Assembly (NCBI GenBank): GCA_030272155.1
Contig: CP126198.1
Location: forward strand, 2,790,001-2,854,000
Direction of reading: 5' to 3'
DNA from: Tetradesmus obliquus
Lineage: Eukaryota > Chlorophyta > Chlorophyceae > Sphaeropleales > Scenedesmaceae
Length of the DNA: 64,000 nt
The translations under genes were made by a program, and so were the position numbers. Below, piece by piece: positions 716 through 21,700 of the stretch; the first letter of the stretch is position 1, and each line of letters starts with the position of its first letter. Below the pieces are notes generated by a model that had not been told where the DNA came from, searched no databases, and saw only the letters and a list, made by a program, of their open reading frames with translations.

Positions 716-3700
716 CTGTGCGTGGATGTTGGGAGGTAAAACCAACACAGGACTAGTCAATGCAGCTCTGATGCATGATTCATTATTATGGGGCAAGTGG
801 TCAAAGCGCAAGGGCGCAATTGCTGTGCAGACTCCGAGTCAAAAGTAGTAGCTGGGTAGCTCTGTCAGGTGCTGACATCATGCAGCAATCGCAACCAGCA
901 GCATGTTTGACTGCCACAGAGCAACACCCGGCAGCGCAGCTACCATAACCTCTGATTGATCCGCGGGCCAGAACCAGTGACTGCCAGCATGCTGCCTATT
1001 CTCACCAATACGCCAACCAGCCAAACGGCACTCACCGCAAGCTGCTTATCCTCCCTGCCAGCATTACCAGCCAGATCCTGATACGCTGCACCCGTCACCT
1101 GCAACACAGCGCCCGCCCCAGCCCAAGACTGCAGCCACATGGTGTACTCAGTTGCTGCACCCATGGCCTGCCCACTCTCTGTGGTTGCCATGGTTCCCGG
1201 CACTGCACTGATGTTGAGAATCGCCACATTGGTGAGCAACAGCCTGCTGCTGCTGAATGTAGCGACGGTTGGAGCAGCATTTGAGGCGGCTGCGAGGGCT
1301 GAGAGGTCTGTCACAGCTGCACCGCTGCTGCTGCTGCTGCTGTTGGCTGGAGTGGATGAGACGCCGTCTGCTAGCCAGGAGACTGGCTCTGAGAAGCGCA
1401 GCAGCAGCTGGAACACGGGGGACACTGCTGTTGGCCATACTGCAATGCTGAGGTCCTCCAGCTGTGGAGGCTGGAAATCCAAGATGACCTGCAAGACAGA
1501 TGGCGTGATGCGGTGGTGAATACGTGCATAAAACCATTGCTGCAGATAAGATCAGCGCCGCAGCAGACGCAGCACACGGTCTCTACTGCACCACACACCC
1601 CACGTGCAAAGAACTGCCTGGAGCTATGCTGCGGCTGCTGCGCCTGCAGGTCGTTTGCTGCTTTCCACACTCTCAGCGCTATACACATGCTCCTCTGTCG
1701 TCAGTCCCTGCTTCAATCCTGCAAGCCTGCAGTCCTAACCTCTGCAACGGCTGGCAGCAGCAGCGTCGTGCGGCCGCAGAACATGTCTGTGCCGTTCACA
1801 GCCGGCAGCAGCGACACCGACCAGCGCCCCTGGGAGCCCAGCGGCACCCCGATCTCACAGGCCAGGGCATTCCACTGGAAGCAGGTCATCGGCATTGTGA
1901 TCATGTCACTGTCGCTGTTGCTGCTGCTGCCTGCGCCAGCTGCTGCGCTGTCCCCTGCAGCTGTGTTCAGCTGTGTCAAGAACATCGGACGGCTCAACAT
2001 GTGCACGGTGCAGTTGCCGGCTGGGCAGTAGAGATCCTTGGAATCAGAAGACATGAACACCACCAGCATCGGCAGCGCCTGTGCCAGCAGGTCCCTGTTG
2101 TTGCCACGAGGGCTGTAGATGACCGGCAGCAGCTGCGGCACCTCGCACTCGCCCTGCACAGGCTGCTTGCAGCAGTGCGTGGCGTTTGGCTCTGTTGCTG
2201 CTGCCTTGCTGCTGTCAAGCACAGTGCCAGGCGGGCAGGGGAAGCTGGCGCCTGACTCGCTGAACAGGCCGCAGGTCGGCACAAAGCGGCAGCAGGTGGT
2301 GCGGCTGGGGCTCGTTGCGTTCAGCGCCTCGCTGTTCAAGGTGTAGCCGGCCGGGCACTCAAAGCTGCCGCCGTTCTTGACCACCATGTCACACGACGGC
2401 ACAAACGAGCATGCTGTTGTGTTCTGCACCCACATGTGGCGCGGCTGGCAGCTGCATGCAAAGCCGACCGCCGGTGCTGGCAGGTCTGTGCAGGAGGCCG
2501 GGACTGCAGCGTCAATGGCATCGCACGGAAAACTGTCTCCACAGCTGTCGATATCTGCAGCGCAGGTTGCAGCACAAGCAGCACAGCTCAATGGTCCCCT
2601 GTTGCCAGTAGTCAGCGGGCCACAATGCAGCACAGGCAGAGGAAGCCAGGCCTTGAAGGATTCCTGCCATGGATGCTTTTCACTGCGGTGATCGCAGAAT
2701 GGCCACTGCCTGTGCCTCCAGGAAGCCGCCAATGACCCGCACACAATCAATCGCTTCTGTGGTGAGCTGCTGACAAGAGACAGCGCAGCACTTGTAAGCC
2801 TTTGCCGTGCGGTTTGTTACGTGTGGGAGCAGCAGCAACACCCTACCTGTTTGGCAGCGGTCGCCCTCCCAACCTGAGGAGCAAGCGCATCTGCCTGCCA
2901 GGCAGCTGTTGTTCACGCTGCGGCCGTTGCAGTAGTTAGGCACCCATGAGCAGTCGTCTGCAGCCATAGCCAGCAAACGCGGCAGTCAGTTGTTTCAAAG
3001 GGTCTGCAAGGAGTTGCGGGCAAAGTGCTCAATAGCGAGATGCAAGAAACTATTCTCAAGTTCTGGGGTTGGCCTGCCCTGTGACAGCAGCCCGGCTGCT
3101 TTCTGTGTGAACAGGAGAGCCCCAGATGTAACCACCATTTGTGTTGAAGCTGTAACCTGAGCTGCTGCTGCCGCCGCACATAGCAGTTCTACGCCTTGCT
3201 GACAAGTGCAGTGGCAGTTGTCAACTTCACCCATTGATTCCCAGCACAGCTGCGTACCGGCGCAGCTAGCATTTGCGGCATCCCAAGAGTAGCCAGGCAC
3301 GCAACCGCAGGTGTGGCCCAGCCCAGGTGCTGGCACATCAACACACGTGCCGATGAGTGCATTCGCAACGCTGCCGCACGGCGCGCCAACACAGCCGTCG
3401 ACGTCTGCATCACAGACAGCAGCACCAGCGGCAGCATTGAGCTAATCATCATGCTTCAACAACACCTGGGTCGCAGCACACTCAGTCGCTGCTGGCTGTG
3501 CGTTTTGTAGCTGCTTCACGCCAGTGCTGAGTGTCCTGGGTGTTTTCATGAACCATGCGCAGAGGCTGCACAGCGGCAGTTCCCGAGCTCACCGTTACAT
3601 GTGGCGCCGCTTGCGTTCCAGCTGTAGCCGGTTTGGCAGCTGCAGCTGTAGCCCAGGGAGGGCGCTGCCAGGTCAACGCAGGAGTTGTTGACAGCGTTTG

Positions 3701-6700
3701 GCGTGCTGGAACAGTTGTGCGGCTGGCAGGCGTCAACGTCTGCAGGTGGAGCAGCGGTGATGCTTTTGTGTTACAATGACCCACAAATACCCACATGTAA
3801 CTACCTTGCTCTATGTGATGGTACCAAGGCACCTGTGCACATAGCGATTAATGCAGGATATGTGGCTGCTTGACTGATGGATTGCATCTGCACTTCCACT
3901 CCATATGTGCATTGGTGCTCTGATCTGGCAGCGGCCAGTTGACGGTTGTGCTGAGAGTGCAACATTAGCAGTTGCCAGCCCAACAGTGTGTACAACCGTG
4001 CATGTCAAAAGCACTTTGCGTACTACATCCGTGCAAGCCAGGAAGCTAGCAAATCGCGGGGATAAGCCTGTTGTCATACACACCTGCACAGCTGCTGCTG
4101 CTGCTGTCCCACTGCCAGCCACTGGAGCAGTTGCAGGCATACCCTAGGGAGGGTGGCGGCAGGTCCGTGCATGACCCGCTCACAGCATTGGCTTGGCTGT
4201 TGCAGGGGCTGGCCAGGCAGGCATCCAGGTCTGCAAGGCACAACAGAGACGGTACAACAGCTGTTCAAGGAGACGTGACCAGGGTTGAAGGTAGGTACTT
4301 GGCATGGTTCAGCAAACAGCAGAGGGACGTTGAGTGCAGTGCCTACCAAGCTCACAAGTCAAAGGCCTAAGTGGTCACAGAGTGGCAGCACGCTGCCTCC
4401 AGCTGCAAGCATGTCATGTGCATATACTTGTATGAAACAACGGCGCCAAAGCATGCTGAATCAAGCAGCATAAATGACACACAACAGTCGAGACTGCGAA
4501 ATGCATGCTTTTGACCAAATCAATGAAAATAAAGCACGGGTACACAGGCAGCAGCTCAGCCCCAGCCCTCACCAGTGCACTGAGCCGTGCTGTTGTCCCA
4601 GGCGTATCCCTGGCTGCAGCTGCAGGTGTAGCCGACCCCTGGTGCTGGCACGTCAACACAGCTGCCGTTGACAGCATTCGCCGTGCTGTTGCAGGGCTCA
4701 TGCTCGCACCCATGAGAATCTGCAGCAGTTGGCACGCAGTTACCAATCGGCCATGTCAGCTTCAAGAGGCTTGGTCTGCGGCTGTGCAATGGTTGTTGCA
4801 CTGTGTGTGTGGGGTCCATACAAGGTTACGTTATGAGCCTGCACATACACAAGTAGCAGTATGCTGTGCATGGGTGTCAGCCACTTGCATTGCTCTATGT
4901 GCAGCCATAAGCAAGTCTGGCCTGACCCCGGCAACTCACCAAACTGGCAGGCGTTGCCGGCCCAAGCTGGTGTGCAGCCACACACGCCCCCGGAGCAGCT
5001 GCCGTTGCCACGGCCATTGCAGTAGTTGCTGACAAATGTGCAGTCATCTGGCGGCAGCAACAGCGGCAGCAACGCAGAAGCAGTACCCGTGGCAGCAGCT
5101 TCAGTGATGGCAGTGGCAAACGACAGCTGTCAGTATGCAGCACATCGCCCGCAACGCCACTAGAGCGAGCACAAGTGTTACATGGTGTATGTTTGCTGGC
5201 AAACCATTGTTGCACTATAGAGAGAGGATAGTTACATGTGGGTCCTGGCACCATCTTGGATGGTATGAGCCACAACAGGTTGAACACAGGTCTGACTATG
5301 GCTTCACTGATACCCTGTAGTCACGCTTCTATGTTAGTGTTAACAACCTTGAAGTTATCACCAAACACGCACCCTGGCACAGGAGGCTGCTTGCGTTCCA
5401 GCTGTAGCCGGGTTGGCAGCTGCAGCTGTAGCCCAGGGAGGGTGCTGCCAGGTCCACGCAGGAGTTGTTGACAGCGTTTGGCGTGCTGGAGCAGTCAAAG
5501 AACTGGCAGGCGTCAACGTCTGCAGGTGGAGCAGCAGTGATGCGTGTAAGAGAAGAGCACTGTGATAAGCACATGTGCTGTCTGATACCACATGCGTCTT
5601 GACCAGCAGCGTCTGCGCATGCTGAGGCAGTGGTGGTACTGACAGCCCCACAGCAGCAGCGCTCCGACCTGCACCGACTGAAGCTGAACCCACGGCTGTG
5701 TGGACATTCAACATCATTCCATAAGCAACAGCTGACAGCAGCGCACCTGCACAGCTGCTGCTGCTGCTGTCCCACTCCCAGCCACTGGAGCAGTTGCAGG
5801 CATACCCCAGGGAGGGTGGCGGCAGGTCCGTGCACGACCCGCTCACAGCATTGGCTTGGCTGTTGCAGGGGCTGGCCAGGCAGGCATCCAGGTCTGCAAG
5901 GCACAACGAAAGCACAACACAGCAAGTGGCATGTGTGGCCTTGTCAGTGCACTTCTTGCCAAGCAGGAGTGTGAAGCAACCACCTCTGCAACGATCAGCA
6001 CAGGAAATGCATCGCGAACCTTGCCGCCGCTCACCGTCACATGTGGCGCCGCTTGCGTTCCAGCTGTAGCCGGTTTGGCAGCTGCAGGTGTAGCCCAGGG
6101 AGGGCGCTGCCAGGTCCACGCAGGAGTTGTTGACAGCGTTTGGCGTGCTGGAGCAGTTGTGCGGCTGGCAGGCGTCCATGTCTGCATACATGCACATGAT
6201 TTTGTCACAGCTCAGTGAGTTGATTGAAATGCGAGCACCGTTGCCATTGCAGCATGCGTTTTCAACAGCAAGAACTTGTTACAAATGTTACATGGTAGCA
6301 CAAGCCGCTAGTTGCCAGCAGCTGAGGTGGTATGAGCTGGCAGCATGCTGCGGCGGCGGCGGCGACGACCCGACATGGCCAGCAGCAAAGGTCATGCTGC
6401 TTCTTCACAGCAGCAGCTGTAACAAAACGGCTGTCATGCTTGTGTCAACCCAGACGCAACAGGTTGCTGCGTGCTTGATGATTTGTATGTTTCCAATTGC
6501 AGAACACGTACCTGCACAGCTGCTGCTGCTGCTGTCCCACTCCCAGCCACTGGAGCAGTTGCAGGCATACCCCATGGAGGGTGGCGGCAGGTCCGTGCAC
6601 GACCCGCTCACAGCATTGGCTTGGCTGTTGCAGGGGCTGGCAAGGCAGGCATCCAGGTCTGCAAGGCACAACGAAAGCACAACACAGCAGTTCTGATCTT

Positions 6701-9700
6701 CAGGTATGCTATTGCACTGCATGCAATGACAACTGCAACAGCAGCAGCATTCGGTTGAGAATGATGACAATTTATGATAATGATGAGCAGCAGCAACAGC
6801 AGTTGAATTTGTGTGTACGACAGCGTACACCAGGCCTCCACGCACCTTGGCACAGGAGGCTGCTTGCGTTCCAGCTGTAGCCGATTTGGCAGCTGCAGCT
6901 GTAGCCCAGGGAGGGTGCTGCCAGGTCCACGCAGGAGTTGTTGACAGCGTTTGGCGTGCTGGAGCAGTTGTGCGGCTGGCAGGCGTCAACGTCTGCAGGT
7001 GGAGCAGAGGTGACACTTCTGTCAGTGTAAGTGTTCACAAGTGCCCATGCATACTGCAGGTAACGCAAGTGGTGTGGCTGCTACAGACAGCCAAACGTAC
7101 GTTTGTTGTGAACCTGCTGGGACCAGAGTACACAACAATGGTGTGAGGTATGTGAGGAACACCGGGCATGCTGAATTCTTGGTGCCCTTGCGTTAACATG
7201 CTCACGCATTGGCTGGCTGATGATGCTGTACGCACCTGCACAGCTGCTGCTGCTGCTGCTGTCCCACTGCCAGCCACTGGAGCAGTTGCAGGCATACCCC
7301 ATGGAGGGTGGCGGCAGGTCCGTGCACGACCCGCTCACAGCATTGGCTTGGCTGTTGCAGGGGCTGGCCAGGCAGGCATCCAGGTCTGCAAGACACAACA
7401 GACACAGTACCAAAGTGACAGATAACACTATTGGGCTACAGTACATGCGGCATTTGATAGCACATGCCTACCAGACCAGGGTGAACTGCGACACTCGTGC
7501 CGTTTTCATCAGCAGCATCAAGCAGCAGAGCAGCTGAGGTGGTAGAAGCAGCGGCATGTACACAGTAGAACTGCAATGCATGAAGCGCAAGTGCTGAGAG
7601 TGCATTGCTTGGACTGGCATGCTGTGCACAAGCAGCCAATTGCCTAGGATGTCAGAAGCCAGGGCCTGCCTCAAAACAAAACATATACATAAAGGCTAAA
7701 CAAAACGCTGTTTCATGCTGCTGTTGAGATGGGAACAGCACCATGAATGCCGCCGTACAGCGTAGGCTACAAGCTCTAACATGCGCTCCAACAAATGCAG
7801 CTCAGCCCCAGCCCTCACCAGTGCACTGAGCCGCGCTGCTGTCCCAGGCGTATCCCTGGCTGCAGTTGCAGGTGTAGCCGACCCCTGGTGCTGGCACGTC
7901 AACACAGCTGCCGTTGACAGCATTCGCCGTGCTGTTGCAGGGCTCATGCTCGCACCCATGGGCATCTGTAACAACATCAGACATTCTCCGCGCCTTAACG
8001 CCATGCACACAAAGGAGGCTGCAGATGTGCACACATCAACAGCAACTCGACACTGCAGTGGCATTGTGCTTTATCAAGCGTAGGGACATACTTTGTTTAA
8101 TTTAATATGCATGCTAAGTCGTGCAAATAGGGTGATGTGCAAACTGGATGCTGAACGGCTACCCATACAGTATTGTGTGGGCCTGGATGAAGGATGTGCA
8201 AGCATCAGCGCAAGCTGTGTGTAGTGCTACCTGCCGCAACTCACCAAACTGGCAGGCGTTGCCGGCCCAAGCTGGTGTGCAGCCACACACGCCCCCGGAG
8301 CAGCTGCCGTTGCCACGGCTATTGCAGTAGTTGCTGACATATGCGCAGTCATCTGGCAGAGCGGCAGCAACAGCGGGGGCAGCACCTTGGTCAACGCAGG
8401 CATATGCTTGCTACAGAAACTGATGCTTGCGGAAGGCTGGTGTATGCCCAGCATCTGGCTGGTTTTGCTGCTGACCCGCCATGATGTGTTCTAGAATGCA
8501 CGGTGGCGCGCTACTCACCGTTGCGACCAGCATCTGCTGCTGTGACACCGCCATGTTGTGTGTTGGGCTGCACAGTGGCAGTTCCCGAGCTCACCGTCAC
8601 ATGTGGCGCCGCTTGCGTTCCAGCTGTAGCCGGTTTGGCAGCTGCAGCTGTAGCCCAGGGAGGGCGCTGCCAGGTCCACGCAGGAGTTGTTGACAGCGTT
8701 TGGCGTGCTGGAGCAGTCAAACGACTGGCAGGCGTCCATGTCTGCACACATGCACATGATTGTGTCAAAGCTCAGTGAGTCGCGTGTAATGCGAGCACCG
8801 TTGCCATTGAAGAATGCAAAATTTTGATGCAAAATTACATGGTAGCGCAAGCCGCTAGTTGCCAGCAGCTGAGGCTGTATGAGCTTGCAGCATGCTGCTG
8901 CTGCTGCGGCGGCGGCGGCGGCGGCAGCAACAACCCGACAAGGCCAGCAGCAAAGGTCATGCTCCTTCTTTACAACAGCAGCTGTAACAGAACGGCTGTC
9001 ATGCTTGTGTTTGCCCAGACGCATCAGGTTGCTGCACGCTTGACGATTTGTATATTTCCAATTGCAGAACACGTACCTGCACAGCTGCCGCTGCTGCTGT
9101 CCCACTCCCAGCCACTGGAGCAGTTGCAGGCATACCCCAGGGAGGGTGGCGGCAGGTCCGTGCACGACCCGCTCACAGCATTGGCTTGGCTGTTGCAGGG
9201 GCTGCCCAGGCAGGCATCCAGGTCTGCGGCGCGCAACAAAAGCACAACACAGCAAGTCGCACGTGCAGCCTTGTCAGTGCACTTCTTGCCAAGCAGGAGT
9301 GTGAAGCAACCACCTCTGCAACGATCAGCACAGGAAATGCATCGCGAACCTTGCCGCCGCTCACCGTCACATGTGGCGCCGCTTGCGTTCCAGCTGTAGC
9401 CGGTTTGGCAGCTGCAGGTGTAGCCCAGGGAGGGCGCTGCCAGGTCCACGCAGGAGTTGTTGACAGCGTTTGGCGTGCTGGAGCAGTTGTGCGGCTGGCA
9501 GGCGTCCATGTCTGCATACATGCACATGATTTTGTCACAGCTCAGTGAGTTGATTGAAATGCGAGCACCGTTGCCATTGCAGCATGCGTTTTCAACAGCA
9601 AGAACTTGTTACAAATGTTACATGGTAGCACAAGCCGCTAGTTGCCAGCAGCTGAGGTGGTATGAGCTGGCAGCATGCTGCGGCGGCGGCGGCGACGACC

Positions 9701-12700
9701 CGACATGGCCAGCAGCAAAGGTCATGCTGCTTCTTCACAGCAGCAGCTGTAACAAAACGGCTGTCATGCTTGTGTCAACCCAGACGCAACAGGTTGCTGC
9801 GTGCTTGATGATTTGTATGTTTCCAATTGCAGAACACGTACCTGCACAGCTGCTGCTGCTGCTGTCCCACTCCCAGCCACTGGAGCAGTTGCAGGCATAC
9901 CCCATGGAGGGTGGCGGCAGGTCCGTGCACGACCCGCTCACAGCATTGGCTTGGCTGTTGCAGGGGCTGGCAAGGCAGGCATCCAGGTCTGCAAGGCACA
10001 ACGAAAGCACAACACAGCAGTTCTGATCTTCAGGTATGCTATTGCACTGCATGCAATGACAACTGCAACAGCAGCAGCATTTGGTTGAGCATGATGACAA
10101 TTTATGATAATGATGAGCAGCAGCAACAGCAGTTGGATTTGTGTGTACGACAGCGTACACCAGGCCTCCACGCACCTTGGCACAGGAGGCTGCTTGCGTT
10201 CCAGCTGTAGCCGATTTGGCAGCTGCAGCTGTAGCCCAGGGAGGGTGCTGCCAGGTCCACGCAGGAGTTGTTGACAGCGTTTGGCGTGCTGGAGCAGTTG
10301 TGCGGCTGGCAGGCGTCAACGTCTGCAGGTGGAGCAGAGGTGACACTTCTGTCAGTGTAAGTGTTCATAAGTGCCCATGCATACTGCAGGTAACGCAAGT
10401 GGTGTGGCTGCTACAGACAGCCAAACGTACGTTTGTTGTGAACCTGCTGGGACCAGAGTACACAACAATGGTGTGAGGTATGTGAGGAACACCGGGCATG
10501 CCGAATTCTTGGTGCCCTTGCGTTAACATGCTCATGCATTGGCCGGCTGATGATGCTGTACGAACCTGCACAGCTGCTGCTGCTGCTGTCCCACTCCCAG
10601 CCACTGGAGCAGTTGCAGGCATACCCCAGGGAGGGTGGCGGCAGGTCCGTGCATGACCCGCTCACAGCATTGGCTTGGCTGTTGCAGGGGCTGCCCAGGC
10701 AGGCATCCAGGTCTGCGGCGCGCAACAAAAGCACAACACAGCAAGTCGCACGTGCAGCCTTGTCAGTGCACTTCTTGCCAAGCAGGAGTGTGCAGCATCC
10801 ACCTGTACACACCTCTGCAACGATTAGCATAGAAAATGCCTCATGCACCTTGCCGCCACTTACCGTTACATGTGGCGCCGCTTGCGTTCCAGCTGTAGCC
10901 GGTTTGGCAGCTGCAGCTGTAGCCCAAGGAGGGTGCTGCCAGGTCCACGCAGGAGTTGTTGACAGCGTTTGGCGTGCTGGAGCAGTTGTGCGGCTGGCAG
11001 GCGTCCATGTCTGCACACATGCACATGATTGTGTCAAAGCTCAGTGGGTCGCTTCAAATGCGAGCACCGTTGCCATTGAAGAATGCAAAATTTTGATGCA
11101 AAGTTACAAGGTAGCACAAGCCGCTAGTTGCCAGCAGCTGAGGCGGTATGAGCTTGCAGCATGCTGCTGCTGCTGCTGCTGCTGCGGCGGCGGCGGCAGC
11201 GACGACCCGACAAGGCCAGCAGCAAAAGTCTTGCTCCTTCTTTACAACAGCAGCTGTAACAGAACGGCTGTCATGCTTGTGTTTGCCCAGACGCATCAGG
11301 TTGCTGCACGCTTGACGATTTGTATATTTCCAATTGCAGAACACGTACCTGCACAGCTGCCGCTGCTGCTGTCCCACTGCCAGCCACTGGAGCAGTTGCA
11401 GGCATACCCCAGGGAGGGTGGCGGCAGGTCCGTGCACGACCCGCTCACAGCATTGGCTTGGCTGTTGCAGGGGCTGCCCAGGCAGGCATCCAGGTCTACG
11501 AGGCACAATGAAAGCCAATCACAGCGATACGAGTGTTCAGGTCAGAGTGCACCGTTTGGTGATTAGGTGAGCAACAGCACCTCCACTCAGCAACCTCTTG
11601 AGTTGTCTTCGTGCATAAATGCTTAAGCGCGCAAATTGCCACCACTCCGAGGACATGCACCGCTGGTGCTGATTCACACCAGCAGCACAGCATGGAGAAT
11701 GTTCTGCTGGAAGGCTGAACTGAGGTGACCATATTCATGATGATGCAGTACACCGTTTGTGTGACATTACACCTGCCCCTGCAGTCCTGAGCACCTTGTG
11801 CACACGCAGACATGAGAAGTGCACCCACCTACACAGCTGAGGCTGCTCTGCTGCCACGTGTACCCCGTGCTACAGCTGCAGGTGTAGTTGTCAGCAGGTG
11901 CGGCTACATCAGCACAACTGCCAGGCAAAGCCTGTGCTGTTGTGTTGCAGGGGTCGCCTAGGCACCCGTTATTATCTGCAGAGCAGCCGGCAAAGTCTTA
12001 GCTGTAATGAAAGAGCGTGTTTGATGCTTCGCAATATTGTTTTGGAGTGTTACGCACGGCTGGTTCTGCTGGAGCAACTTGCAGCTGCAGATGATCCTAT
12101 GGTAGCTGACAGACCAATGGTTTGTACCATCATTCATAGACCAGCAGCTGCTAAGCGCCTGCCCAGTTGACAGCAGGGCTGCAGCGTGCCACACACAGCA
12201 CAGCGGATGCATCTGCACGCGCCAGATGCCTGCCTGCAGCGACACGATGCCTCAGCAGAAACTGATGCACATGCATTGCCATGGCACTAGTGGAGCCCTG
12301 GTCGATGCGTGGTACTCACATGTGCAGCAGGCACTGTCAATGACAAAGTCAATGACGGTGTGAGACACAACTTGCGATGCACTGCGCAACTACAGGGATC
12401 AGTCCGGCTGCAGCAGCCTGTGACGGCATTGGCTGCATGGGCCAAACAGTGCAGCAAGCACAAGTCGTGCTGTTGAGGAGTGCCGGCGCTCACCAGTGCA
12501 GCTGAGGTCAGCCTGCCGCCATGAGAAGCCGGGGGTGCAGGAGCAGGTGTAACCCAAACTTGCCGGTGGCAGGTCTGCACATGAGCCAGCGACCGCGTTA
12601 GGTGTGGTGTTGCAGGGGCTGCTTTGGCAGGCATTGAAGTCTGCAGGTGGGAGCAGACACGGACATGACAGACAAAAAGCTGGTCATGCTTTAGCGCCTG

Positions 12701-15700
12701 GCAGCGAATGAACGGAATACAGCTGTGCAAACTGTTTTCGCTGGACTCCTACCTATTCTGGGTTGGCTGCAGCAGTTAGACAGCTGGAGGCTCATATAGC
12801 ACGCCGAGTGACACATGCCTACACCCATCATAACGCCTACTCTGCTTTGGCATAGCTACACCCAGAGCCACAGCATTGAGCATATGCCTACACACTCTTG
12901 TTATTGGGATCACCTCTGTGTGGAAGGACCCTGCTGTGCTTTCAATACCGCTAAGTTCCAGCACACAGTGTGGCGTGTCTGTTCCGTGCATCCGCTGACA
13001 GATGCAGCAGTGCATTGACGCTGACACGTAGTGCGTCATGCGGCTGTGCTAGTCACAAATCATGTGCCGCAGTGATGTGGGTGACGTAAAATCATCAGCG
13101 CTGCCAGCCCTCACCGATGCAGCTCAAGCTGGCTTGATCCCAGCTCCAGCCGGAGGAGCAGCTGCAGCTGTAGTCAGCAGCCGGAGGGGGCCTGTCCATG
13201 CAGGAGCTGCTCACAGCATTAGGCGTGCCGCCGCAGGGGGCGCTGCTGCAGGCGTCAAAATCTGCAGCAAGAGAAAGGCAGCAGCACGAAAGGAAATGGC
13301 CGCATTCCAGCGTTGTCGGCATTCCCGCCACTGTCAGCCACACAATGAACACGACGGTTTGGTTTTGAAATTGCAGGTGCACTGATAAAGCCTTGAACCA
13401 ACTGGAATCTGATGCATTTCACAGCTGCTTTGCGGTCATGGCACTTGCATGTTGTCAGCTTGTGCCAGACATAAGTGTATGTTGACCAGATATGAAGATG
13501 TACACCACCCTCTGCGGTCCACACAATATGGCAGCTGTTGTTTACAGCCTTGTATGTGCTTTTAATGCCAGGCAACCAGGGCACAGTTGTGTACTTCTCA
13601 GGCTACCAGGGCATGTGCTGCAGTCGCTCTCACCTGCGCACTGCAGAGTGCTGCTGTTCCAGGCAAAGCCAGCTGTGCAGTTGCAGGTGAAGCCAGTGCC
13701 AGGCGCTGCCACGTCCACACATGTGCCGTTCACTGCATTGCTCACGCTGTCGCAAAGGTTCCCATTGCAAGCATTAAAATCTGCAGATCAAACAAACACT
13801 CATCAGCAGCCCTTCAGCAGCATGCCAGCACTTCAAATACAGCAACCCCCACTGTACTATCATCAGCATGCATAGCGTTCAGAGTGGTAACCCTGGAGCA
13901 TGCATAAATGTTTTATTTGGGCAGAGAGCTCAGCAGCTCAGCCCCAGCCCTCACCAGTGCACTGTGCCGTGCTGTTGTCCCAGGCGTATCCCTGGCTGCA
14001 GCTGCAGGTGTAGCCGACCCCTGGTGCTGGCACGTCAACACAGCTGCCGTTGACAGCATTCGCCGTGCTGTTGCAGGGCTGGTTTTGGCACCCATCCGCA
14101 TCTGAAAAGCAGTCACACGTGCAGCATTGCAGATACATTTCCTTTTGCTCGGGCTTGTGATTGTGAGCAGGGCTGCTGCTGCTGTTTTGGTCATCACGCT
14201 CTCGCAGAACTACAGAGATTAACTCCCAGTTTGTGTGCTGCTGCTGCTGCTGCTGCCGCTGCCTGTCAGCAAGCACGTAACACTTCAACCTAGTAACCAC
14301 ATGCACACCATCCGATCAAGACATCGACTGGACCCACATGTGTCTTCCTGTCTCTATATCTCTGTGTGTTCCCCCCCCCTTCCCCCTCCCCCTGCTCCTC
14401 TTCTTCTTCATCATCATCTTCCCTCTTTCTCTCTCTCCCTCGCTCTCTCACCCTCTGTTCCCTTCTCTCTCGATCTCCTCTTCCGTTTTGTTTCCTGCTC
14501 GATCCTCAAAACACATCCCGTACATCAGGCTACACTGTCATCAACAGTGTGCCCAACATGCACCCACCTGTGCAGCAAACTTCCACACTAGGGCTGATGG
14601 CGCTCCCAGCTGTTGCGTTGGATACATAACCTGCGGGACACTGATAGCTGGTGCCGTTTTCCGAAAATACTCCACAGCTGGGCACAAACTGCAGCAGAAA
14701 CCATAGTTTGCTGTGAGTTGCCAGAGTCACATAATAATATGCATGATAGTAGTGCCGATAACCAAGGGCATCAAGTGAGTGAGAGTATGACTGCACTGGC
14801 AAAAGAGTTAGCTGCTGAAAGCTGACAATAGAGTACAGGTCAAGGCGAGGAGCGGTGTGCTGATTTCTTGCTACTGCGTACCAAGCAGCACACTTCTTGG
14901 GATGGAGCAGGATGTGCGGCTGCAGCTGCATCAAACTTGTAGTTTACATTGCACCAAAAGGAGCTGCCATCAGAGTTGTAGTGGTCACATGTGCTGTAGG
15001 CAGAGACAGCCGAATGAGCTTGGTTGTTTGTGTTGTCAATGTCCCTTGAGCACTCTGCAGTGGTGTTTATGTGAAAGCTACCTGTGGCGTTCACAGCCAC
15101 AGTCGCGGTGTGTGTGATGCTGCTCCCAATAGTTAGCGTAGGTATGGGCCCACAAGTCAGCTGCTGCCCCAGCACAGAGCAACCTGCAGAGATTTGGTGA
15201 GGCAAAGTTCCACAACTTATGCTGTGTTGACTTGTGACGTCAGGACAGCTGTAACAGTGGTACCCCAGAAAAGTCAAGGCTTACACACAACCTGCTCATG
15301 GACAGACAGATGGCAGTCTATGCAAATGTTTGCTTTATTGTCCAGGCAAATGTGTACGCAATTCTCACCATTGGGAACAGCCACAAACTGCATCCCTGGT
15401 GACAGCTTTTGTGCAACGTATACATCCAACCCTGTGCCAGAGCCTTGGTTAGTGAGGTTGAAGGTTGCTGTCACTGTATCACCTATGAGCAATTGCCCAT
15501 CAGCAGGGGTCAGGGCTTGGGTAACGACCACATCTGGAAAAACTTCAACCTGCATGACAGCAGGTGATGGGAAGTCAATGCATGGTCCCACGACCCGCTG
15601 CATCAATGTAGCGTATATTTCTGCTCCAAGGCTACTCAGCATGATATGAATGTGAACCAGATGCTGACTCTTTAGAACAGCATACCTGCCATTACTGTGT

Positions 15701-18700: not shown

Positions 18701-21700
18701 CAGGAAGAACCTGTTACCACCGTAACCGTTACCGGCCGTAACCGGCCGCCGGGCGGCGTGTGCGTTACCATTACCGGCCGTGACCGGCTGCCGCTGTGCC
18801 CCCACAACCCGTAACCATTACCAGCCGTTACTGATGCTGGCGGCTGTGCGGCTGTGCGGCTGTGCGGTGCATTGAGCGGTGCTCGCGCTAGTTGTAACTG
18901 CAGTGTAAGCCACGTCGGCGGCATGTCGGTGTTACGGTTTGGGCGACTGTAGTTACATGCACTACGGTGCCGCTAGCGGCGGCTGCGGAAAGTGCCGCCT
19001 ACCGCTGCCGCCGCCGTTACCGGCCGTTACCGGCTGCTGCCAACCGCTGCACCCGTAACCGTTACTGCCCGTTACCGGCCGCCGCCGCCGCCGCCATGCG
19101 TAACCGTTACCGGCCGTAACCGGCACTGCTTGGATACAGCTTCATCCCGTCATCGCTGACGATACACAACAGCGGAGTGTCGACAAGCACAGCAACAACG
19201 TTCCATACAAACACATTCAAGGGTATTGAGCGGTATCCGAGTCGGCTAGCTTAGGATGTTGCAGCACAGCAAGTCGCCAGTTGTGATGGGTGGTGGTAGT
19301 GTCGATCTGTTTCGCTGGTTCTGGCACGCCATGTCCCCGTATCGCAGGATGGCAACGACTACGCATCACGACTTCGATCATCGAATCGGATTCGATAGTT
19401 ATTAGCCGGGAGTCTTGCAGCAGCTGCTCACTGCAGAGTGCATCAGGCTGAACTCCCAGTTTCTCTTGCAGTGACAGCAGCGCACAAAGCGCACATCCAT
19501 GCTCATGCTTGTAGGCTGCGCCACCCAGACAACAGACAGTGCCAGCTGGGCAGCTGCCCAGCGTGGCTATGCTACGTTTACGCACATGATCTGCATGGCG
19601 CAACTGCGCTGCACTGGGGAGGGTTTAGGGCTGCAAGTTGTGACGTGCTGAACCCTAGTGTTGACCACCAACAGTCTAAAACTGCAAACCCATGCAAACG
19701 GCCCCACAGCAGGCGCAACTGCAAAATGTTATTTAGTAGTTTATTCTGCAAAAAGTCAAAAAGTCCGAAAAGGTGGGGCATGCTTTAAAAGGGTTTCAGG
19801 GCATTAGGCATTTGTATTTAGGTGGTATTCAGAATATCCTTAGCCTAAACTCCGAGTTAAGCTAGCTGTGTTCTGTGGCTATGCCACTCCTACAAGGCAA
19901 CAGGCACATTCGACTCAAGTATGCATAACAAAAAAAAATGGTACAACTCAATTAGGTTGGTGGCCACAGGTATGAGTCAAATGTATGTTGCGTTGTTGTG
20001 TTGTATTGTGTTGTGTGTGCGTGTGAGTGTTGCCGTTGCCCAGCTGTAGTTCTTCAGCATACTATGTATGGAACTATCCTCTCTCAGTTAAATCATGTAC
20101 CAGCACCTACTTACACGCTTGTCAGAGTGTTGTGCCACGCTGCAGGTTGTCCGCTTGATTTGAAACCCCAGCTGCTTGGGATCGTTCCATACATCATCCT
20201 CGTGATGCCATGCACCATTGACGCTCGCAAATCGCCAGTTGTTTGAAAAGCATGCAGGGCATCCCCTGCACTGGGGATGACACTCATATTGTACCACGAA
20301 TCCTCAGGGCAGAAGCATGCACTGCTGATGTTGCCATCCATGCAAAATTCTGGCTCGGTCTGCTGCCAAGCATATTCTTTGGCATATTTGCCAGCACTGC
20401 AGTGCGCCAGCCTACACGCAGCACATTATGAGGCAGTGTAAGCAATGCAATACCTGCACTTCATCACACACTGTGAACGAGACCAGGGCATGTCTTGACA
20501 TGCCTGCTGCGTGCCTGTTGTGCAAGGCAACCACATTCTGCGTGCGACTGCAAGGTGTTATGCTTGCTGACCTAAGGGCCGCTTTTGGGCTGTTCCGCTG
20601 CCACATGCCCCGCTGCCTAGGCCATCACAAAAACTGCCTGCACAGCACCCACCCCAGGTGACGGAGGTTGGGAAATATGTCTGGAAGCTTTGCCAACAGC
20701 ACCAGATTGCCACCCAACATGTTGAAGTTCAAGTTTCTGCATGCAGAGTGTGTGTCAATCATGAGTATCCTAAGATTAAATGCAGCAATGCAACATCACA
20801 ACAAGAAGGTGCCATACATACGCAAAGCAGCAAAATAGCAGTTTTAGCAACAGATTTGGCAAAAAGGGTAAAGCCCGATTTGTTATTCTGGATTTTAAGT
20901 CAATGTATATGCACAGCAAGTGTGAAAGGTCACAGCGCTTGATGGCAGCAGGCCAGCAGGGGGGGCGGGGGGGGGGGGGGGGGGCATACTGCGGAACATA
21001 AGGGCATACTGCGGAACATAAGGGCTTCAGAGCGTCTGGATCAGTGGCAGGGAACCACCATCATTTCAGCATTGGCGGTTGTAATGGTCACACCATCGAT
21101 GCTACTCGAAACATATGTGTTATACATGTGTGCATGTGCACATGCCAGGCGGCAGGGTGCTGCGGCTGCATCACCGGAAACAAATCATTGCACCTGCATG
21201 CTGCCCGAACATGTGCAGTGTGCTTGATGAGGATACTGTGTGCAGCTGTGCACTCGACAAGCTTTAGACGAGCAGTACTTCTACCCAGTATCTGCCAACT
21301 TACAGATACCACACAAAGGACCCTGCAGTGTCCCCTTGGTTGTTGATTCGCTTCTCAAAGGCGCTGAAGTCCAGTTTGGCAGAATAGAGTGTAAGGTTGC
21401 GCCAGTCGCTGCAGTACCAGTTGAAATCATGTATTGTTGGTTGGGTTGTGGAGGGTCAATCCATCAATAGCAAAAACGTTGCAGATGTGAACAGCAGGTT
21501 GCAAGTCCAGTCCTGACCTGCTCTAGGTAACAGTGGGTTGCTGAGTGATCTGCAGTCTCCTGGATGTTGACAGATGTTTCTTGCGCCTGTTGTGCTCTGT
21601 ATTACATCATCTTGAAGACTCCAGCCAAAACATATCAATTGCAAAAGTGGTATTGCACTACCACTGATGTTGCTGCTTCGTTTTCATTAAGCAACTCAAG

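Follow-up and report, generated by a model that had tools for sequence, protein, structure and literature searches.

Results

Organization of the EGF exon array

The stretch of DNA analyzed (the window, 64,000 nucleotides of Tetradesmus obliquus) carries 27 EGF-like exons on the minus strand, spanning positions 14101 to 2847 (~11.3 kb), with the first exon (E01) at 14101–13955 and the last (E27) at 2957–2847. Splice sites were read from the sequence: AG precedes and GT follows all 27 exons, and all 27 are in phase 1/1, so that each module has its own exon with phase 1 introns on both sides, as defined for class 1-1 modules. Joined, the exons give 1286 codons free of stops. The exon length is 147 bp in 23 of the 27, the others being E16 (7385–7236, 150 bp), E14 (8352–8245) and E22 (5047–4940) with 108 bp each, and E27 with 111 bp. 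A 28th EGF module (~2554–2406) lies in the next exon (2554–1740), ahead of Cys-Cys modules, and an HMM of the 24 long modules matches it with an E value of 3.1e-12. The upstream partner is a Cys-Cys module exon (14688–14568; phase 0 in, phase 1 out), and splice phases are compatible at both ends of the array. Farther upstream, an open frame on the minus strand (16116–15277) shows a repeat resembling DUF11 at an E value of 1.9e-4, its score of 22.2 bits falling short of the 24.6 cut-off. The preliminary description, which listed 27 modules on separate exons of almost always 147 bases, all in phase 1/1, and a 28th fused to Cys-Cys modules in the next exon, is thus borne out in its layout, and its word "algal" is supported by the LHC family (PF00504), for which the genome has 52 matches. 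A tandem-repeat scan did not list the array; relative to that scan, the array units are far apart and separated by unlike introns.

The exons include four recurring types, A, B, D, and S, arranged in nested repeats in the order D-2-3-4-5-(AB)x4-S-D-(AB)x3-S-D-AB-26-S'. Type A comprises E06 (11495–11349), E08 (10712–10566), E10 (9988–9842), E12 (9223–9077), E16, which has one extra Ser codon, E18 (6658–6512), E20 (5893–5747), and E24 (4230–4084). Type B comprises E07 (11010–10864), E09 (10322–10176), E11 (9511–9365), E13 (8741–8595), E17 (6992–6846), E19 (6181–6035), E21 (5519–5373), and E25 (3739–3593). Type D is found in E01, E15 (7965–7819), and E23 (4719–4573), and the short type S in E14 and E22, with E27 a diverged form of it. 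E02 (13780–13634), E03 (13261–13115), E04 (12640–12494), E05 (11975–11829), and E26 (3404–3258) are single. Between types A, B, and D the differences amount to ~27–36%, and dS among the type A copies is 0–0.086. E08–E11 recur as E16–E19 in a four-exon tandem duplication, with E09, E10, and E11 identical to E17, E18, and E19 and with introns 94–100% identical; this block was copied together with its introns. A second duplication carrying an intron relates E06-intron-E07 to E12-intron-E13, the introns I06 and I12 being 95% alike. The repeat unit is the A-B dimer and larger blocks, rather than the single exon.

Module identity and the predicted protein

All 27 modules have six cysteines with a C-x-C between the fourth and fifth, as in the EGF-like superfamily. 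The Cys spacing is 4-10-11-1-12 in 23 of the 24 long modules, with 13 in place of 12 in the remaining one, and 6-7/8-4-1-8 in the three short modules. At E values up to 0.1, PF00008 matched 32 of 41 aligned modules (best E 5.9e-5), and the seven modules with known EGF-profile cut-offs all score below them. Calcium-binding EGF modules (PF07645) carry D-x-D/N-E/Q before Cys1 and D/N plus an aromatic residue after Cys3. The long modules depart from this motif at the E/Q position, which is Ala in 19 and Gly in 5 of the 24, and otherwise mostly follow it, with Asp at position 1 in 24, Asp or Asn at position 3 in 22, and, after Cys3, Asp in 24 and Tyr or Phe in 23. A whole-genome EGF_CA search gave no matches, and neither did its controls. 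Among solved structures, the best match to the module profile had an E value of 0.098. For the hydrophobic C-terminal piece, the sole genome match was itself and no solved relative was found by sequence at E values up to 1. On the scanned pieces, Pfam returned just the sub-threshold DUF11 plus matches with E values of 0.025 or worse, and a by-eye reading of the upstream exons as leucine-rich repeats was dropped for want of Pfam support. On viral contigs there were 11 pattern matches, none of which was confirmed.

Taken from the sequence, the locus is probably a cell-surface EGF-rod gene. It would form a single large cell-surface or extracellular matrix gene encoding 28 EGF-like modules in a rod, all but the last having a frame-neutral exon to themselves. 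The product has roughly even chances of being an adhesion or matrix protein anchored in the membrane, with the EGF rod as a disulfide-stapled spacer. The scale had been called more usual for animal matrix proteins, which is fair: 17 other scanned stretches of this genome have ~2 to 9 EGF-like matches each, with genome-wide counts of such matches being lower bounds.

Unrelated introns beside near-identical exons

Introns were compared after trimming 35 nt from each end, with z computed against shuffles, and 15 of 351 pairs reach z 6. Thirteen of these 15 pairs entered a tally of the 60 same-type exon pairs; I03–I04 and I00–I26 flank no same-type pair and were omitted. The flanking introns are related on both sides in 5 exon pairs, on one side in 16, and on neither side in 39, the last group including 16 type A pairs that are 97–99% identical (p-distance 0.014–0.034). 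With trimming on one side and a threshold of z 4, the neither-side pairs number 25 of 60 rather than 39. A further 21 of the 351 intron pairs lie at z 4 to 6, including I15–I23 and I20 with both I06 and I12, and a few of the "unrelated" introns may therefore be very old relatives. For most copies, the flanks do not show the recombination within introns by which class 1-1 modules are recognized. Whole-genome DNA searches with E24–E26, E22–E23, and E01–E02 as probes found other copies whose match covers the exon and extends no more than 30 nt into the intron, and, at the sensitivity of the search, the introns after E22 and E24 have no second genome match. E12 lies between two introns that are related to introns of different copies. 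In the intron before E20, the last 31 nt match intron 17 and the next 39 nt outward match intron 11.

Mosaic exons

The type B exons, E13 and E21 among them, are mosaic (runs test, P 0.0007), with blocks at nucleotides 2–4, 17–23, and 131–145 (0-based) that violate the four-gamete rule. The type D exons are also mosaic (runs test, P 0.012). E01 and E23 have eight of their nine differences within the first 21 nt and one in the remainder, a boundary picked after inspection of the data, and the first 24 nt of their introns are identical. The type A exons show no internal mosaicism (seven variable sites, P 0.63). E17, E18, and E19, as duplicates of E09, E10, and E11, and the 150-bp E16 were left out of the test. 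Mosaic copies, one mark of gene conversion, are thus present among the B and D exons.

Calibration with related arrays

A partial copy of the array on another contig (C9) was used as calibration for the array's own contig (C8). Between the two contigs, synonymous sites differ at 7.0 of 83.9 and introns at 57 of 690, which is 8.3% each. Because introns and synonymous sites differ equally here, on a basis of 84 synonymous sites, the introns appear not to be simply fast-evolving, and where synonymous sites differ by 3% they should stay recognizable. E14–E16 and E22–E24 differ by just that much (2.5 of 84.4 synonymous sites), and their introns are unrelated (binomial P 8e-10, even assuming a neutral distance of only 0.30). 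The S exons E14 and E22 differ from each other at 3 of 108 sites and from the C9 copy at 10 and 9, respectively, although 254 of the 272 sites aligned between C9 and the intron following E14 are identical. Speaking against this comparison, the D exons of the two contigs are closer than their introns predict, E15 showing none of 30.7 possible synonymous differences. Similarity in excess of neutral flanks, a second mark of gene conversion, is found as well.

A second EGF array, on contig C16 of the same genome, served as an imperfect control. Introns beside similar exons are still recognizable there; one exon pair is 97% alike with left introns just 76% alike, so some excess exon similarity may exist in this array too.

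Discussion

The near-identity of the exons is probably maintained by non-allelic recombination anchored in the exons, through conversion and crossover, which would keep the array uniform by exchange inside the exons, in place of the textbook exchange inside introns. Non-allelic homologous recombination would start and end within the exons, since these seem to make up most of the long sequence that still matches between copies. In the absence of crossover, conversion would take in an exon and as much as ~30 nt of the adjoining intron; a crossover would change copy number and leave an exon between the introns of different copies. Phase 1/1 would keep every recombination product in frame, and copy-number variation between strains is plausible.

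The array had been described beforehand as the textbook arrangement for exon duplication. This stands as a description of frame-neutral modules, and the E08–E11/E16–E19 copy is real, but recombination in introns explains a minority of the similarity, given that both flanking introns are related in only 5 of 60 same-type pairs. The tandem-duplication model, in which exon and intron are duplicated through intron recombination and the introns then lose similarity by fast change, is already disfavored and we regard it as unlikely. It accounts for that segmental copy, for I06 and I12, and for the C16 introns that remain recognizable beside similar exons. It does not sit with the equal divergence of introns and synonymous sites between C8 and C9, or with the 16 pairs that share one flanking intron alone, where the switch lies at or near the exon. 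The sharp loss of similarity no more than 30 nt from the exons could instead reflect short copy-and-paste events, each placing a lone exon with 10–30 nt of flank into an intron already there and so adding one module. Both C8 blocks and the C9 copy share the order B-S-D-A-B, which would then have to be rebuilt by chance, and the B and D mosaics suggest exchange among existing copies; an unsystematic look showed no intron interrupted by an insert. These points make copy-and-paste improbable. Conversion by retroposed cDNA was ruled out, since up to ~30 nt of intron edge travels with the exon.

That extension of the shared unit up to ~30 nt into the intron also speaks against selection on exon DNA, for splicing or protein identity, as the keeper of likeness without recombination. 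Some constraint is present, as the six cysteines of all 27 modules show, but synonymous sites are homogenized too in the type A exons, while types A, B, and D have stayed far apart, and selection of this kind is the least probable account we considered. An assembly or polishing artifact, with reads shorter than an exon joining or overwriting near-identical exons, is somewhat less remote and still very unlikely. The exchange points do lie in repeats that short reads could not cross. However, the chromosome size of the contigs (C8 is 5.9 Mb) and the absence of any N from the window and the fetched stretches suggest that long reads were used; reading frame and splice sites are intact in every one of the 27 exons; and polishing, by our reasoning, needs reads that already match and so should not equalize divergent exons.

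In the exon theory, introns supply the recombination sites for module shuffling. Here the introns have diverged and the exons are the main homology, apparently acting as both module and exchange site. We consider it a long shot that the array works as a recombination workshop, in which exon-to-exon exchange varies module number and sequence between individuals and so provides a variable surface for mate, self, or predator recognition or for adhesion. With the locus, its partial copy on C9, and the C16 array at hand, the exon-exchange idea is directly testable by strain sequencing.

Comparison with known systems

Animal fibrillin, Notch, and the LDL receptor carry one EGF module per exon in phase 1/1, in long extracellular tandem arrays. 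The algal array resembles them in its one module per exon, symmetrical 1/1 phase, long tandem arrangement, and probable extracellular use, and differs in its own Cys spacing of 4-10-11-1-12, in its near-identical nested A-B dimers, and in similarity that stops near the exon edges.

In the open-licence literature, no such algal array and no exon-limited exchange in an EGF array was reported among the matches listed. Mass spectrometry of the green alga Scenedesmus obliquus has detected two proteins with predicted EGF-like domains in the maternal cell walls (PMC11839794); the likeness to the present protein lies in the predicted EGF-like domains.

For EGF domains, Bjorklund et al. 2006 (PMC1553488) describe exon junctions enriched in linkers, expansion by exon shuffling as a possibility, with shuffling defined as nonhomologous recombination in introns, and duplication mostly of one domain per event. 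Unlike that pattern, the algal unit is a dimer or a larger block, and its exchange points lie in or beside exons. The same paper reports nebulin super-repeats of seven domains at a time, which the algal array resembles in its higher-order repeat with fixed module order; unlike in nebulin, algal introns at equivalent positions are mostly unrelated whereas the exons are related. As in the concerted evolution of duplicated genes by gene conversion (for example PMC2720389), copies within the genome are more alike than expected. In contrast to such duplicated genes, the process would act among the exons of one gene, in tracts of about one 147-bp exon.

Structure of the EGF array

The preliminary description, 27 frame-neutral EGF-like exons with a 28th module fused to Cys-Cys modules, proved accurate, coordinates included; the array is real and unusually clear. 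The exons, numbered E01–E27 in transcription order (introns I01 and so on take the number of the preceding exon), run from 14101 to 2847 on the minus strand. As read from the sequence, all 27 have AG and GT borders and phase 1/1, and joined they give 1286 stop-free codons. Their lengths are 147 bp (n = 23), 150 bp (n = 1), 108 bp (n = 2), and 111 bp (n = 1), and each of the 27 modules contains six cysteines. The 28th module is the start of the next exon (2554–1740), which runs on into Cys-Cys modules, and a phase-compatible Cys-Cys exon lies upstream of the array (14688–14568, minus strand). The window corresponds to C8:2790001–2854000, and the genome (104.7 Mb in 17 contigs) contains 52 matches to the light-harvesting family, indicating a photosynthetic alga.

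DNA identity groups most of the exons into type A (E06, E08, E10, E12, E16, E18, E20, and E24; 95–100% identical), type B (E07, E09, E11, E13, E17, E19, E21, and E25; 88–100%), type D (E01, E15, and E23; 93–97%), and type S (E14 and E22; 97%), with E27 (S') further off at 67–68% and E02–E05 and E26 as single exons. The resulting order is D-2-3-4-5-(AB)x4-S-D-(AB)x3-S-D-AB-26-S'. E16–E19 is a second copy of E08–E11 including introns, which are 94–100% alike, and E12-intron-E13 repeats E06-intron-E07 (intron 95% alike); tandem duplication carrying introns, with several exons per unit, has therefore occurred.

Other repeats are also present in the window. Intron 21 holds a repeat of ~76 bp (5216–5295) with 38 near-identical genome matches (96–100%) among the matches listed; nine aligned copies have one fixed end and one of variable length, and the repeat looks like the end of a retroposon. 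A stretch upstream (18708–19124) contains short, degenerate repeats whose units resemble CCGTTACCGGCC. At 20960–21025, a perfect tandem repeat with a 20-bp unit comes after a long run of G.

Similar exons between unrelated introns

For most exons of the same type, the neighboring introns are unrelated. After removal of 35 nt from both ends of each intron and scoring against shuffled sequences, 15 of 351 intron pairs reached z ≥ 6 and 21 lay at z 4–6. With z ≥ 6 as the threshold for relatedness, the 60 same-type exon pairs had related flanking introns on neither side in 39 cases, on one side in 16, and on both in 5; an earlier, looser test gave 25/60 with no related flanking intron. The 39 pairs comprise 16 A, 19 B, 3 D, and 1 S, with exon differences of only 1.4–3.4% of sites for A and 4.1–13.6% for B. 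The same pattern is directly visible in whole-genome DNA searches. With E24–E26 as query, all other E24 matches stop at base 149–154 (exon end 147), and matches to E25 (492–638) start at or after 462 and stop by 667; with E22–E23, matches stop 8–9 nt past E22 and start 3 nt ahead of E23; and with E01–E02, E01 matches stop 22–24 nt into the intron.

Such a pattern could arise if introns were simply fast-evolving, and a partial array copy on contig C9 (C9:2182–2185k; 1757–5011 of the stretch L034, C9:2180001–2190000) provides a calibration. It has about nine EGF-like exons, two frame-broken, and is probably a pseudogene or relic; inspection of L034 by eye showed no Cys-Cys module exons. The order B-S-D-A-B is common to this copy and the array on C8. 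Between the two loci, introns differ at 18/272 aligned sites after S and 39/418 after D (57/690 in sum, 8.3%), and matching S, D, and A exons at 7.0/83.9 synonymous sites (8.3%). Introns and synonymous sites thus change alike, and the introns appear not to be simply fast-evolving, as far as 84 synonymous sites tell. Within C8, E14–E16 and E22–E24 have only 2.5/84.4 synonymous differences (P = 8e-10 if the neutral distance were 0.30), with no recognizable relation between their internal introns past the edges. The S exons E14 and E22 differ at 3/108 sites and each from C9 at 9–10, in conflict with the intron following E14, which groups E14 with C9. Counting against this interpretation, C8 and C9 are closer in their D exons than in their introns, with 0/30.7 synonymous differences for E15; exchange between loci or chance could account for this excess.

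Another EGF array of this genome, on contig C16 (C16:3027–3029k; 6639–9002 of L038, C16:3020001–3030000) served as a control, with four consecutive 150-bp exons and additional weaker modules of approximate borders at its ends. For its most alike exons (97%), the introns are related both on the left (76%, z 17) and on the right (91%, z 54). The pairs next in similarity (81–82%) have a left intron in common (91% and 73%), whereas the right one, at the array end, is not shared. Recognizable introns are therefore kept beside similar exons there, unlike in most C8 cases. Exons 97% alike beside left introns 76% alike may reflect the same exon excess in milder form, so that the control supports the contrast but is not clean.

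Probable exchange inside exons

Many of the 25 variable sites of the B exons cluster in blocks. A 5' marker separates E07, E11, and E13 from E09, E21, and E25; at nt 17–23 E13 groups with E21, and at nt 131–145 most sites group E09 with E21. Each of the four possible combinations occurs for blocks 1 and 2, and likewise for blocks 2 and 3. In the runs test, B exons gave P = 0.0007 and D exons P = 0.012; for the A exons, with just 7 variable sites, P was 0.63. Eight of the 9 differences between E01 and E23 fall in the initial 21 nt (nominal P = 4e-7, the boundary being picked with the data in view); a single difference lies in the other 126 nt, and the following intron is identical over its first 24 nt. 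In the intron preceding E20, the final 31 nt show 0 differences from intron 17 and 5 from intron 11, whereas the 39 nt further out show 19 and 4, respectively; the intron following E20 shows a weak relationship to the I10/I18 class (z 7–8). By intron-pair scores, the intron context switches across the A exons E06, E12, E16, and E20 and the B exon E13, as expected for crossovers within exons.

Proposed mechanism, putative protein, and known systems

On the evidence of its sequence, the C8 array has exons that are homogenized while the introns have diverged, exons that are mosaic, intron contexts that are recombinant, and multi-exon duplications. We infer that the exons would anchor non-allelic homologous recombination, by both conversion and crossover, with phase symmetry keeping every product readable.

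The 28 Cys-rich modules, the 49 N-glycosylation sequons in the 27 array exons, a sub-threshold match to a DUF11-like repeat upstream, and several hydrophobic segments point to a putative surface or matrix protein anchored in the membrane; the exons that would link these parts are modeled in part. The hydrophobic segments lie to the left of the window in open reading frames (6779–9999 of L001, C8:2780001–2790000), possibly the membrane end of the array gene; a sequence search of the genome with one hydrophobic piece gave no second match. EGF-like proteins are reported from Scenedesmus obliquus cell walls in an excerpt of PMC11839794, and no account of such an EGF array in an alga was found among the literature matches listed. 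In excerpts of a domain-repeat survey, exon shuffling is defined as recombination in introns and EGF domains are described as duplicated mostly singly (PMC1553488); compared with the EGF repeats covered there, the C8 array has a larger unit and its exchange points lie in or beside exons.
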